Part shown: one piece after another, positions 2,601 to 30,573 of the stretch
Layout of the letters: each line of letters begins with the position of its first letter
How positions within the stretch are numbered: the stretch's first letter is position 1
Source of the DNA: Haloplanus vescus
GTDB taxonomy: Archaea; Halobacteriota; Halobacteria; Halobacteriales; Haloferacaceae
Direction of reading: 5' to 3'
DNA: 64,000 nt
Assembly: GCF_900107665.1 (NCBI RefSeq)
Contig: NZ_FNQT01000001.1
Location: forward strand, 722,398 to 786,397
Translations under genes and position numbers: made by a program
Notes under the pieces: model-generated
Databases searched by the model: none
Seen by the model: only the letters and a program-made list of their open reading frames with translations
What the model was told of the DNA's origin: nothing

Positions 2601-3338
2601 ATGACTGACGACCTCACCATCCGAGAACCGCCGAAGCTCCTCGTGCCCGTCAGAGTGCTGGAGGGAGAGACGCTGCCGGAGACGCTGGTCGACTTCCTCG
2701 CGCCCGCGGAGATAGTGGTCCTCGGCTACCACGTCCTCCCGGAACAGACGCCGACCGAACAGGCCAGCATGCAGTTCGAGGAGCGCGCACAGGCCGCCGT
2801 CGACGACGTTGCCCACGCGTTCGAGACGGCGGGGCGAACGGTCGAGACCCGCGTCGCGTTCACGCACGACCGGGACCAGACCGTCGCTCGCGTCGCGGCC
2901 GAGGTAGACGCCACGGCGACGCTGCTGCCGAATCCCGCGGGCGAAATCGAGGACGTACTGGTGGCCATCCGCGGTGCCATCGACACGGACCGCCTCGCAG
3001 ACCTGGTCGCGACGCTCGTCGGCGGGAGCGACCGCCGCGTGACCGTGTGGGGCGTGGCGCCCGACGACGGCGACTTCGACATCGAGGCCGCCGTCGCCGA
3101 CGCCCGCGAGACGCTCCGAGAGCGAGGCGTCGAGGCCGACGTACTCACGACGGAGGTGTCCGCGTCGGACCGCCCCGTCGCCGACATCGTCGAGCGCTCG
3201 AACGAGTTCGACGTCATCGTCATGGGCGAGGGCGACGCCGGCCTCTCGTCGCTGCTCTTCGGCGACGAATCCGAGCGAGTCGCCGAGGGCGCCATCGCGC
3301 CGGTGCTCATCGTTCGGGAGCGACACGACGAAGCGTAG
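2601..3338 (+). CDS. UspA-type universal stress protein, permease partner
   Basis: A soluble 245-residue protein. The N-terminal half (about 10-110) looks like a degenerate alpha/beta Usp domain. The C-terminal half (about 140-240) ends with the Usp pattern around DVIVMGEGDAGLSSLLFG followed by APVLIVRE. The ATP-binding G-x2-G-x9-G-S/T loop is imperfect. Its ATG follows the permease stop codon with no spacer. Known haloarchaeal APC-Usp fusions suggest a cytoplasmic regulatory domain for the transporter. That role is an inference from position. Confidence 0.85.
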   Translation: MTDDLTIREPPKLLVPVRVLEGETLPETLVDFLAPAEIVVLGYHVLPEQTPTEQASMQFEERAQAAVDDVAHAFETAGRTVETRVAFTHDRDQTVARVAAEVDATATLLPNPAGEIEDVLVAIRGAIDTDRLADLVATLVGGSDRRVTVWGVAPDDGDFDIEAAVADARETLRERGVEADVLTTEVSASDRPVADIVERSNEFDVIVMGEGDAGLSSLLFGDESERVAEGAIAPVLIVRERHDEA

Positions 3339-25571: not shown

Positions 25572-26513
25572 ATGTTCGTCGGCCACGCCGCACTCGCGTT
25601 CGCCATCGTGGGGAGCGTCGCGGTCGCTCGCGGGTGGTCGACACGGACCGCGCTCAGCGCCGCCCTCCTCGCGGGCGCCTTCGCCACCGTCCCCGACGTG
25701 GACATGGTGTACGCGCTCGTCGGCATCGCGGGCGCCGCCGGCGGCGACGCCCTCGCCATCGCGGGCGCGTTCTGGTCGACCGGGAACGTCGTCCACCGCG
25801 CCGTCACGCACTCGCTCGTCATCGCGCCGCCAGTCGCGCTGCTCGCGGCGTTACAGGTGTCGCCCACGCGTCGCCGGCAGCTGCTGTCGCTCGGCCTCGG
25901 CGCCGCGCTCGTGACGGTCATCACCGTCGACGGGGGCGCGCTCGCGACGTTGGTCACCGGCCTGTTTCTCGTCGCCGCCGTCGCCGTCGCGACGGTGGCC
26001 GACCGCTACACCGACCTCACCGCGCCGCAGGTGTTCGGCGCCGCCCTCCTCGGCCTCGTCAGTCACCCCTTCGGCGACCTGTTCACCGGCGAACCGCCGG
26101 CGATGCTCTACCCCCTCGATTCGGCGCTGGTGACCGAACGGGTCGCCCTCGCTACCGACCCCACACTCCACCTGCTCGGCGCGTTCGGCATCGAACTCGC
26201 GACGGTGTGGGCCGCCGTCTGCGTGGCCTGTCTCGCGACGGGTCTGCGCCCCACGACGGCCGTCAGCCCGCGCGCGACCCTCGGCGCCGGCTACGCCGCG
26301 AGCATCCTCCTCATCCCGGCGCCGACGCTCGAACTCTCCTATCCGTTCGTGTTCTCGGTGCTCGGCGTCGGCCTCGTCGGCGCACTCCCGCGCGTTCGAC
26401 TCGTCGCCAGGACCATCGAGTCACCCGACTGGCTGGGCGCGGGGCTAACGGGATTGAGTACGATAACGGTAGCGTGGGCGGCGTACGCCGTCGCGTACGT
26501 CGTTATCAGCTAG
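25572..26513 (+). CDS. membrane-bound metal-dependent hydrolase, YdjM/DUF457-like
   Basis: A 313-residue membrane protein. The N-terminus MFVGHAALAFAIVGS and the motifs VPDVDMVYALVG, HRAVTHSLVIAPP and VSHPFGDLFTGEPP match the YdjM group, in which scattered His and Asp are thought to bind metal at the membrane face. About eight hydrophobic segments follow. The upstream frame reading into it is basic and not coding; the ATG at 25572 has a CGGTTTATGCC element 29 bases before it. Biochemical role of the family is not established. Its stop overlaps that of GGPP synthase in CTAG. Confidence 0.8.
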   Translation: MFVGHAALAFAIVGSVAVARGWSTRTALSAALLAGAFATVPDVDMVYALVGIAGAAGGDALAIAGAFWSTGNVVHRAVTHSLVIAPPVALLAALQVSPTRRRQLLSLGLGAALVTVITVDGGALATLVTGLFLVAAVAVATVADRYTDLTAPQVFGAALLGLVSHPFGDLFTGEPPAMLYPLDSALVTERVALATDPTLHLLGAFGIELATVWAAVCVACLATGLRPTTAVSPRATLGAGYAASILLIPAPTLELSYPFVFSVLGVGLVGALPRVRLVARTIESPDWLGAGLTGLSTITVAWAAYAVAYVVIS

Positions 26514-27556
26514 TAGCCGCGAGAGATAAGGTATTCGGCGATGTCTTCGAGCAGGTTACGCGCCTCGTTGTCCGGGAGGACTTCGAGGTCGGCCTTGCTC
26601 TGTTCGACGAGCGACCGCGCTTTCTCGCGGGCGTACTCGATACTCCCCGCCTCGTTCAGCGTCTCGACGGCCGCCTCAACGGCGTCGTCGGTGAGGGTCT
26701 CGGCCGTCTCGGCGTCGACCAGATTGTCGACATCGACGCCCTGCTGGCGGGCGTGGAGCGTTATCAGCGTCTCCTTGTTCTCGACGAGGTCGGACCCGCG
26801 CTGCTTGCCGAGTTGCTCCGAGGGCACCGTCAGGTCGAGCACGTCGTCCTGAATCTGGAACGCCGACCCGGCGGCGATGCCGTAGTTGTAGAGGGCGTCG
26901 ACCGCCTCGTCGTCGGCGCCGAGTAACACGGCGGGCGTCGCCGCCGCGTCGCCATACAGCACGGCCGTCTTCGATTCGACCATCTCGAGGTACTCCTCGG
27001 GGAGGACTTCGGTCCGGTGTTCGAACTCGACGTCCATCGCCTGCCCCTCGCAGATGCGGGTGCAGGTATCCGCGAGCATCCGCATCGCTTCGAGACCGTT
27101 CGCGGGCGCGGCGCCCGTCTCGGCCATGATTTCGAACGCCGTCGAGTAGAGCGTGTCGCCGGCGAGGATGGCGGTATCCACGTCGTAGGCCTTGTGGACG
27201 GCGGGCACGCCGCGACGGAGGGCGTCGTCGTCCATGATGTCGTCGTGGATGAGGGTAAACGACTGGATGACTTCGAGGCTCACGGCCCCGGCCATCACGT
27301 CCACGGTTTCGCCGTCGAGTGCGGGGAACTGGCGGTAGTCGACGGAGAGCGGCGGCACGTCCGCGAGGGCTTCGGCGGCGAGCAGGGAGACGGTGGGGCG
27401 AAGTCGCTTGCCCCCCGCCTTCAGCAGGTAGCGCGAGGCCTCCCAGAGCCGCTCTGGCTCCGTCAGCGGGAGGTCCTCGTCGATGGCTGCGTTGACCTGT
27501 TCGCGACGCTCGCGGACCGCCGCGAGCACCCGCTCTTCCGTCGATTCGGTCGTCAT
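26510..27556 (-). CDS. idsA: geranylgeranyl diphosphate synthase (polyprenyl synthetase)
   Basis: A 348-residue trans-isoprenyl diphosphate synthase that builds C15/C20 chains from isopentenyl diphosphate for archaeal ether lipids. The first aspartate-rich motif [15 protein letters not shown] is at about residues 103-117; the second is [10 protein letters not shown] at about 235. The GGKRLRP substrate-binding segment is at 48-54. Its ATG overlaps the TGA of RNase J by four bases (27553-27556), so the two genes form a coupled operon. Its stop codon overlaps that of the convergent YdjM-type gene. Whether it makes C15 or C20 products cannot be read with certainty. Confidence 0.95.
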
Positions 27557-28905
27557 TCCACCAGCTGGATCATGTTGCCGTTGCGCGTGATATGCAGGTC
27601 CCGACCCACCGCGTACCCCTCGCTCTCGGCCAGGTCGACGTAGGGGGAGAACCCTTCGAGACTCTGGTGAGCGGGGATGACGTGCTGGGGCTGGAGCGCC
27701 TGCAGCATCTCATAGTGGCCCTCCTGACGGAGGTGACCGGAGACGTGGATATCGTCGTAGATGCGGGCGCCCTGCATGCGGAGGAGGCGCTCGGACTGGT
27801 AGCGCTGTCCCTCGTTGGTCGGCTCGGGGATGACGCGTGCCGAGAAGATGACCTTGTCGCCGTCCTCCAGTTCGTACGGCGTCTCGCCGCGGCCCATTCG
27901 GGTGAGCATCGCTCGCGGCTCGCCCTGGTGGCCTGTGACGATGGGCAGGTAGTTCTCCTTGCCCTCCTTCATGATTCGCTTGAAGGTGCGGTCGACGGAC
28001 TTGCGGTGGCCGTACATCCCCAGGTCGTCGGGGAAGTCGACGAAGTCGAGTCGCTCTGCGGTGCCGGAGTACTTCTCCATCGAGCGCCCGAGGAGGACTG
28101 GCTGGCGCCCGATGTCCTTCGCGAACTCGACGAGACTGGTCACGCGAGCGATGTGCGAACTGAACGTGGTAGCGACGATGCCGCCGTCGTAGTCCTCGAT
28201 GGAGTACATCACGTCGCGGAGGTGCTTGCGCGCGACGGACTCGCTGGGGGTGCGGCCCTTCCGGCCCGCGTTGGTACAGTCCTCGATGTACGCGAGGACG
28301 CCCTCGCCTTCACGACCGATTTCGCGGAAGCGCTCCATGTCGATGGGGTCGCCGACGACCGGCGTGTGGTCCATCCGCTTGTCGAGGCCGTAGACGACGG
28401 CCCCTTCCGGCGTGTGGAGGACGGGGTTGATGGCGTCGATAATCGAGTGCGTCACGTTGACGAACTCGAGGTCGACTTTCCCGGAGTCGCCGATGGACAT
28501 CGTCTCGCCCGCGTCCATCTTGACCAGGTCGTTGTTCACGTTGAACTTGTTCTCGCCTTCCACCTGCTGTTTGACCAGTTCGATGGTGAACGGCGTCGCG
28601 ACGATGGGTGCGTCGTAGCGGTGGGCCAGTTTCGAGATGGCGCCGATGTGGTCGAGGTGGCCGTGCGTGGGGACGATGGCCTTCACGTCGCCCTCGAGGT
28701 CACTCATCACCCGGTCGTCGGGGATGGCGCCCATGTCTATCAGGTCGAGACTGTGCATCTGTTCGGTTTCGACGTTGTCGTGGATCAGCACCTGCGACAG
28801 GTTCAGACCCATGTCGAAGACGACGACGTCGTCACCGGCGCGGACAGCAGTCATCTGCCGTCCAACTTCTTCGTAGCCGCCGATTGTTGCGATTTCTACT
28901 TCCAT
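27553..28905 (-). CDS. rnj: archaeal ribonuclease J (beta-CASP exonuclease)
   Basis: A 450-residue metallo-beta-lactamase/beta-CASP RNase that degrades RNA 5' to 3'. The zinc-binding motif is THGHLDH (residues 80-86). Later metal and CASP ligands appear in [30 protein letters not shown] and [16 protein letters not shown]. The length fits archaeal RNase J. The ATG at 28905 has GGTGA at a proper Shine-Dalgarno distance; an in-frame upstream start at 28956 would add residues unlike the family. The leader of about 145 bases contains two palindromes. A TTTTTATTACC element near 29074-29084 (reverse strand) is the likely promoter. The downstream gene is GGPP synthase, a pairing seen in many archaea. 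Confidence 0.95.
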
Positions 28906-28925
28906 GATTTCACCGAGCATTGAAA

Positions 28926-28941
28926 TGCCACAACTGTGGCA
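28926..28941 (-). promoter_or_regulatory. palindrome TGCCACA-N2-TGTGGCA in the RNase J leader
   Basis: A perfect 7-bp inverted repeat with a 2-base centre, 21 bases upstream of the RNase J start and just upstream of its GGTGA ribosome-binding site. A second inverted repeat with the same half-site lies at 29018-29035. It may be a protein operator or an RNA element. Confidence 0.5.
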
Positions 28942-29017
28942 GGGGTGCTCACGCAAATCCCGCTAAGGGGGCCACCGGCCCCGGCGTCTTGCAGCACGTC
29001 GGTCGCTGGTCCCCGCC

Positions 29018-29035
29018 ATGTGGCCGCTGCCACAT
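29018..29035 (-). promoter_or_regulatory. second palindrome ATGTGGC-N4-GCCACAT in the RNase J leader
   Basis: A perfect 7-bp inverted repeat with a 4-base loop, lying about 40-55 bases downstream of the likely TATA element, so probably inside the 5' leader. Its arms are complementary to those of the repeat at 28926-28941, so the two could also pair with each other in alternative folds. Confidence 0.5.
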
Positions 29036-29103
29036 TTGCCCGCGGGTCTCTGGTATGCGGGACTACACGCCGGGGTAATAAAAAGCACGTGGGTCGGCGT
29101 CGG

Positions 29104-29646
29104 CTACGGCGCCGGCGCCTCGTCGACCCACTCGAAGGCGACGCCCGCCCGCGCCGCCGTGCGTTCGTCGCGCTCCGTGTCGCCGACGAACAGCGCCGTA
29201 GACGGGTCGGCACCGAGGCGGTCGATGGCCGTCAGCAGGGGTTCGGGGTCGGGTTTGTGCGTCGCGACCGAATCGCGGCCCACTACGGTGTCGACGTGGT
29301 CCAGCAGGTCGTGGCGGTCGAGTGCCACCCGACAGGCCGAGGACGCGTTGAGCGAGCAGACGCCGACCGGAACCTCCCAGTCGGCGACGCGGTCGGCGTG
29401 TGAGAGCCGGATGGACCGCTCGGCACCCCGACGCTCGTGGTCGGCGAGAATCCCCTCCAGGTCGTCGGCCAACCCGTGTTCGGGGGCGCGCTCGAACAGC
29501 GACCAGAGGTCCGCGCCCGCGACGTCGACGCCCGCCGCGTCGAAGGCGTCGACGGCGTCGGCCGCGGCGGCGTTCCAGTTGACCGCGAGGCGGACGAGCG
29601 TCCCGTCGAGGTCGTAGACGACGGCGCCGTAGTCGCTGGTGTTCAC
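29104..29646 (-). CDS. HAD-superfamily phosphatase (phosphoglycolate phosphatase-like)
   Basis: A 180-residue soluble HAD hydrolase. Motif I is VVYDLDGTLVRL at the N-terminus with the nucleophile Asp. Motif III is the HKPDPEPL region. Motif IV is ALFVGDTERDERTA. A small helical cap lies between I and II, and motif II is the VGVCSLN region. The GTG at 29646 begins MNTSDYGAVVYDLDG; the long upstream extension of the frame is an artefact of reading antisense to cysE. Likely acts on a small phosphorylated metabolite. It is separated from RNase J by about 200 bases holding the RNase J promoter, and is divergent from cysE. Confidence 0.88.
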   Translation of the reverse strand: MNTSDYGAVVYDLDGTLVRLAVNWNAAAADAVDAFDAAGVDVAGADLWSLFERAPEHGLADDLEGILADHERRGAERSIRLSHADRVADWEVPVGVCSLNASSACRVALDRHDLLDHVDTVVGRDSVATHKPDPEPLLTAIDRLGADPSTALFVGDTERDERTAARAGVAFEWVDEAPAP

Positions 29647-29744
29647 ACGTATCGTGTAGCGACGCCGAGCAATGAGCCTTCGGACAATCGGCCGTCTCGA
29701 CCGCCGACAGAACGCTTTTGTTTCCGTGTAAGGTACGTTTGAAT

Positions 29745-29942
29745 ATGCTGACGACCGTCGGCACTTCAGGCGACCGGATAGCACTCGAGCGCCCGCCGTC
29801 GCGCACGAGGTGCTGTCGTCCGTGTCTCGGCACGCCGACGGCGTCGTCCGCGCACTTCTCGGCCCACGTGGCAACGCGTCCGTCGGTCGCCCCCGTATCG
29901 GGCGACCGTGGGCGGTCCCTGGCTCATGTTCGAGCGCAGTAG
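29745..29942 (+). other. putative Cys-containing upstream ORF of cysE (leader peptide candidate)
   Basis: A 65-codon frame whose ATG lies about 26 bases after a T-rich element (CTTTTGTTT, 29715-29723), the spacing of a leaderless start. It has three cysteine codons within five (TGC TGT CGT CCG TGT, 29811-29825). It reads through the hairpin at 29884-29908 and stops at 29942, overlapping the cysE start. The peptide is Arg-rich and not acidic, so it is unlikely to be a stable haloarchaeal protein; a regulatory reading frame is more plausible. Weakly supported. Confidence 0.3.
29884..29908 (+). promoter_or_regulatory. hairpin upstream of cysE
   Basis: CGGTCGCCC (29884-29892) and GGGCGACCG (29900-29908) form a perfect 9-bp stem with a 7-base loop, ending 17 bases before the cysE ATG. 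No good Shine-Dalgarno lies between, which makes a role in translational control possible. Confidence 0.5.
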
Positions 29943-30573
29943 ACGCCTGCTCGGGGCGGCCCGCGAACGCGTCCGCGAGGACCTCGACGCCATCCGCGAA
30001 CGCGACCCCGCCGCCGGGAGCCTCCTCGTCCTCCTCACCTGTTACCCCGGCCTGCACGCGCTCTGGGCCTACCGGGTCGCACACCTCCTTTGGGAGCGCG
30101 ACAATCACACGACTGCGCGCCTCCTCTCGCAGTTCGCGCGCTTCGTGACTGGCGTCGAAATCCACCCCGCGGCCGATATCGGACGACGCTGCGTCATCGA
30201 CCACGGCACCGGCGTCGTCGTCGGCTCGACCGCCGAAATCGGCGACGACGTGCTCCTCTACCACGGCGTCACGCTCGGCAACCGCCGCCCGGTCGAAGGC
30301 AAGCGACACCCGACCGTCGGCGACGACGTCTTGCTCGGCGCCAACGCCACCGTCCTCGGACCCATCGAAATCGGCGACGGCGCGACCGTCGGCGGTGCCG
30401 CCGTCGTCGTCCAACCCGTCGAGGCGGGCACGACTGTCGTCGGCAACCCCGCCAAGCCGGTCGACCGAGTGCCGGAACTGAACGACACCCAAGAGGCGGC
30501 CGAGGGCGCGCAACTCGACCGCATCGTCTGCGACGGTGGAGACCACCCCGACGACACGCCGACCGACGACTGA
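29926..30573 (+). CDS. cysE: serine O-acetyltransferase
   Basis: Makes O-acetylserine from serine and acetyl-CoA, the committed step to cysteine. The 215 residues have the SAT N-terminal helical part ([37 protein letters not shown]) and a left-handed beta helix of hexapeptide repeats ([39 protein letters not shown] in parts, [14 protein letters not shown]). The catalytic His/Asp pair lies in VIDHGTG and the conserved [18 protein letters not shown] segment is present. The acidic tail ([10 protein letters not shown]) is haloarchaeal. GTG at 29908 is an alternative start. The leader is about 180 bases, carries a hairpin and overlaps a Cys-containing ORF. Confidence 0.93.

Follow-up and report, generated by a model that had tools for sequence, protein, structure and literature searches.

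We found that the rnj–prenyl synthase operon in our window (the whole stretch of 64,000 nucleotides that was analysed) is preceded by a structured 5' leader RNA whose conservation is shown by comparison with its relatives, and whose predicted arrangement places a hairpin P1 near the predicted 5' end, a hairpin P2 with a nearly invariant tip in the middle, and a two-part stem P3 beside the start codon. This RNA probably lets the cell adjust its amount of RNase J and, by analogy with RNase E, we assign a probability of about 0.5 to the reading that it is the target of feedback control by RNase J. Judged by sequence comparison, the two palindromes picked out by an initial annotation of this DNA are the outer part of P1 (P1b) and the inner part of P3 (P3a), not matching operators. 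The leader is 153 nt long and ends at the rnj start codon (28905, minus strand), and rnj overlaps the following prenyl synthase gene by 4 nt. The features, in window positions, are as follows.

29076..29084, minus strand: TATA-like box TTTTTATTA; TTT(T)A lies 35-40 nt before P1 in 66/71 loci.
28906..29058, minus strand: the conserved element as a whole, class I rnj leader RNA; R2 match of 152.6 bits, E 1.2e-31 in the window.
29012..29046, minus strand: hairpin P1, with a base of CCCGC (29042-29046) pairing with GCGGG (29012-29016; 100% of cells paired and both-side change in 2/5 pairs in A4), an internal loop GGGCAA and the distal stem P1b.
29018..29035, minus strand: P1b, the AUGUGGC/GCCACAU palindrome; 7/7 pairs changed on both sides, 97.8% paired (A4).
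28972..29009, minus strand: hairpin P2, four helices in the A4 pairing test.
28979-29002, minus strand: P2 tip CCGACGUGCUGCAAGACGCCGGGG, the most conserved stretch.
28915..28950, minus strand: stem P3, GAGCA (28946-28950) with UGCUC (28915-28919), enclosing P3a; both-side change in 4/5 pairs, 96.4% of cells paired (A4).
28926..28941, minus strand: P3a, the palindrome UGCCACAGUUGUGGCA; 4/6 pairs changed on both sides, 96.8% paired (A4).
27553..28905, minus strand: rnj, RNase J (450 aa); TIGR00649 at 421.2 bits (cut-off 400), and PF22505.
26510..27556, minus strand: polyprenyl (geranylfarnesyl) diphosphate synthase, second gene of the operon; NF040789 at 577.9 bits (cut-off 560).

The palindromes themselves, TGCCACA-AC-TGTGGCA at 28926-28941 and ATGTGGC-CGCT-GCCACAT at 29018-29035, lie where they had been reported, flanked on the minus strand by the TATA-like box (29076-29084) on one side and the start codon of rnj (28905) on the other. 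The window holds a single copy of each pattern (gap 0-12), far above the means of 0.00 and 0.01 in dinucleotide shuffles, and the whole genome holds GCCACA-N0-12-TGTGGC at 1 place and TGTGGC-N0-12-GCCACA at 3 places. Ordinary folding energy would suit palindromes that arose by chance, but this near-zero expectation, together with the conservation and covariation seen in alignments A3 and A4, makes chance hardly credible, and conservation refutes it. Archaeal TATA boxes usually stand about 25 nt ahead of the transcription start. With the box 35-40 nt before P1, transcription is thus predicted to begin near 29053-29058, about ten bases ahead of that hairpin, and given the same placement before the first helix in 66 of the 71 loci, both palindromes should be transcribed; a start downstream of both sites, an outcome that would have spoken against a role in the leader, is unlikely from the position of the box. 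Just ahead of the box, sequence at 29085-29095 and at the corresponding place in relatives (ACCCACGTAG or AACCCACTGCG) is conserved across genera, possibly as a BRE or as the site of a regulator.

To evaluate the structure we used two covariance models, R1 from 12 leaders (alignment A1) and R2 from 42 chosen loci (alignment A4). Across the 42 relatives of A4, which was fitted to the structure, 95.6% of cells were paired and 23/34 pairs showed both-side (compensatory) change, a level reached by 0/500 shuffles, and partners slid by 1-3 columns paired in 30-45% of cells. Alignment A3, comprising 25 Natrialba-type leaders and built without the model, gave 98.3% of cells paired, both-side change in 5/28 pairs and slid controls of 33-49%; in this clade the stem proximal to the start codon is drawn otherwise (GAGAGUC with GGCUUUC), and the R1 alignment places it poorly there. 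Covariation of the kind expected of a structured cis-regulatory leader was therefore found in both A3 and A4. Support from the 12 close relatives alone was modest (3 pairs changed on both sides, reached by 93/500 shuffles), in part owing to three rows in which MAFFT had put P1b in the wrong place, and their main rnj leaders share a mean pairwise identity of 80% versus 44% for the 138 nt upstream of the TATA box. Folding energy of the leader was not unusual (z -1.1 and -1.0) and the single-sequence fold is ordinary; the evidence for leader structure comes from relatives, where its elements can also be recognised by eye in Haloferax, Halogeometricum, Natrialba, Natrinema, Halobaculum and others. 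The initial annotation had identified the rnj leader and noted that the arms can pair within each repeat, both of which were borne out, and the absence of conservation that would have counted against it is excluded by a structure kept before rnj across relatives.

The P2 tip, which was not in that annotation, has the consensus CCGACGYGCUGYAAGACGCCGGGG, and its 18-mer core was found with at most one mismatch in 14/20 relatives, with a second one-mismatch site in two of the genomes (G009, G017). Its innermost pair, U-A in the window, is lost in most relatives (23/41 cells unpaired in A4). RNAalifold drew a further CCCG/CGGG pairing between P2 and P3, each pair of which is broken in 0-2 of 12 relatives, and energy folding of the window favours a related pairing; the CCCG/CGGG pairing could be an alternative state, and no conservation of it was seen in other genera. 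One congeneric leader (L087:2851-3043) carries a duplicated P2 segment with two GACGUGCCGUGAG stretches. Five Halorussus loci (L023, L028, L033, L048 and L054, around 2700-3000) have CGUGGC-type hairpins repeated in varying number near the leader 3' end, which look as if a stem had multiplied.

Seeing that both window palindromes use the half-site TGTGGC, the initial annotation had raised pairing within or between the repeats, and a switch for RNase J autoregulation or a double DNA operator. Among 16 aligned leaders with both hairpins, 11 were fully paired within both and 0 fully across, and mean pairing out of 6 came to 5.81 inside each hairpin, against 3.94 and 4.69 between the two (one-base shift allowed; the window itself reaches 5 across). 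Arms of the TGTGGC type occur in P1b of only 3/16 leaders (L081, L082, L084), so the half-site is not conserved in both sites, and the arm letters vary as compensated pairs that keep the RNA pairing. Because the arms of each hairpin change separately while each keeps its own pairing, neither pairing between repeats nor a double operator is supported, and the operator, whose sites would moreover lie downstream of the predicted start, is very improbable. The half-site common to the two palindromes of the window is thus a coincidence or a recent convergence rather than a conserved feature. Two further candidates were set aside: the AUG in UUUCAAUGCUC shares the rnj frame in the window, yet in relatives, read by eye, it lies out of that frame or runs into a stop, and hence no upstream ORF is conserved; and no tRNA or Rfam origin of the leader was found.

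To assess distribution, we collected 80 named haloarchaeal rnj loci and scanned 74 with R1 or R2 (E <= 0.05); the gene is present in 12/12 genomes of the genus, and the closest named loci are those of Haloplanus. The class I leader lies directly upstream of rnj in 57/74 named loci and in 12/12 congeneric main genes, that is, in 69/91 rnj loci scanned (69/86 main rnj loci, 0/5 paralogs), and at the same threshold it was not found in 17 named main loci, 5/5 genus paralog loci or 9/9 further paralog leaders. At E <= 0.01, R2 matched at least 177/293 genomes of the order and 58/87 genera, and in a phylum sample of 148 genomes at least 14 had a match, all inside the order; these genome counts are lower bounds because strict filters lose weak matches. 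Three genomes (G027, G077, G297) show two matches each. In all 56 genomes picked from those with a match, the match adjoins rnj on the same strand at -8 to 291 nt from its start, a constant position in the 5' UTR of a single kind of gene (with the transcript start inferred from TATA spacing), and 9 of these genomes carry another rnj besides the one matched. The best 30 loci, a set that overlaps the 56 genomes, also had the match beside rnj in every case (30/30). The gene upstream of the leader varies among loci, according to calls from a crude composition score that gave no answer for some loci and are indicative only, and downstream of rnj a prenyl synthase gene was found in 80/80 named loci.

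This last arrangement makes rnj and its neighbour inseparable as targets, and adjacency to one operon only also fits any factor that controls that operon. The main rival to feedback is a riboswitch or protein-bound leader that senses another signal (isoprenoid supply, stress) and controls the whole rnj–prenyl synthase operon, and an RNA of this length, with several helices and a loop that hardly varies, does resemble an aptamer. Riboswitches usually, although not obligatorily, stand before several genes of a pathway, whereas this RNA was found only before rnj in 56/56 genomes checked, and the rnj paralog, with no synthase beside it, has a conserved leader too. The prenyl synthase as second gene nonetheless keeps a riboswitch in play, and we regard such a sensor as possible but rather unlikely.

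Of the 17 named main loci without the class I RNA, 15 share another conserved leader, class II (alignment A5), found about 150-260 nt upstream of rnj in Haloarcula, Halosimplex, Halorientalis, Halovenus, Salinibaculum and others (L040, L041, L043, L044, L052, L060, L063, L070-L073, L076-L078 and L080; the remaining two are L045 and L069). Like class I, it precedes rnj, follows a TATA-like box and contains a conserved hairpin, but its sequence and pairing differ and R2 has no match there. The hairpin shows compensation in 2/7 pairs and is joined by a CCGAG/CUCGG pairing of the ends, which is invariant and so proves nothing by itself. The rnj paralogs (L093-L097, L131-L139), with proteins 77-88% identical, have a conserved third leader type of their own, with AACCGAAA near its beginning; most of these leaders also have UGAUCGG close to the start codon. 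No prenyl synthase stands beside the paralogs in 5/5 examined, and their conserved leader thus ties long leaders to rnj.

Given the known bacterial RNase leaders, feedback by RNase J is the most economical reading, and autoregulation, already suggested by the initial annotation, is still the best guess. Precedents are E. coli and cyanobacterial rne (PMC10989929) and B. subtilis RNase Y (PMC10303841). Acting by itself or together with a partner, RNase J would recognise its own leader, probably at the P2 tip, and would then cleave it, trim it from the 5' end or block initiation near P3, such that rnj expression would fall when there is RNase J to spare; lying near the 5' end, P1 would restrict ordinary attack in the 5'-3' direction. 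Counting against feedback are the 17/86 main rnj loci without class I RNA, the second match in three genomes and the ordinary single-sequence fold. P1 lies some ten bases from the predicted 5' end and P3 ends close to the start codon, positions that would also suit an unchanging 5' structure whose only roles are to protect the mRNA against 5'-3' decay and to set translation, with no feedback. Shielding alone needs no nearly invariant P2 tip, and we consider this reading unlikely. A stable noncoding RNA, processed from the rnj message or ending before it and acting in trans, would accord with an own promoter, a compact fold and the leader-derived RNAs reported in Pyrococcus abyssi (PMC3124441); it is improbable in that the element mostly runs, among the 56 genomes, to only a few bases from the rnj start, which is what a leader would do.

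If feedback by RNase J operates, it would represent RNase homeostasis via a leader RNA in archaea, and it would be testable in a genetically tractable host, as Haloferax species carry the class I RNA (L002, L003, L005, L007, L008, L009, L011). Haloferax volcanii is described in an mBio abstract (PMC10470531) as lacking an RNA exosome, so RNase J dosage would be important there. More broadly, we tentatively propose, at somewhat less than even odds, that haloarchaea monitor RNA decay capacity through dedicated rnj leaders, of which at least three unlike types (class I, class II, paralog) arose or diverged for the same task, as an archaeal counterpart of RNase E homeostasis. A start-site study of H. 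volcanii judged structured-leader control not typical of haloarchaea (PMC4983044); here a structured leader precedes a central RNase gene in 177/293 sampled genomes of the order.

As a cis-acting mRNA leader the element is of a known kind, while this RNA on rnj in archaea appears to be new. Our literature search, with mainly open-access coverage, found no rnj leader RNA in haloarchaea, and haloarchaea and RNase J are absent from the main text of a 2010 survey of 104 candidates. Rfam 15, in which rne5 is included as a family, gave no leader match at E <= 5 across window positions 28000-30000, and none at E <= 1 for the leaders from 7 loci. Ribosomal protein leaders offer one parallel, with one RNA, one operon and control by the product, whereas the product here is an RNase, for which binding is proposed. 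The E. coli rne 5' UTR (rne5) and the rnj leader are both long, structured and conserved, and both precede the coding sequence of a major RNase, with feedback here proposed; yet the enzyme and the RNA are unrelated, and the rne leader is 361 nt long (PMC10989929) versus about 150 here. B. subtilis RNase Y likewise controls its own mRNA but, according to the abstract of PMC10303841, by cuts in the early part of the reading frame and at other sites.
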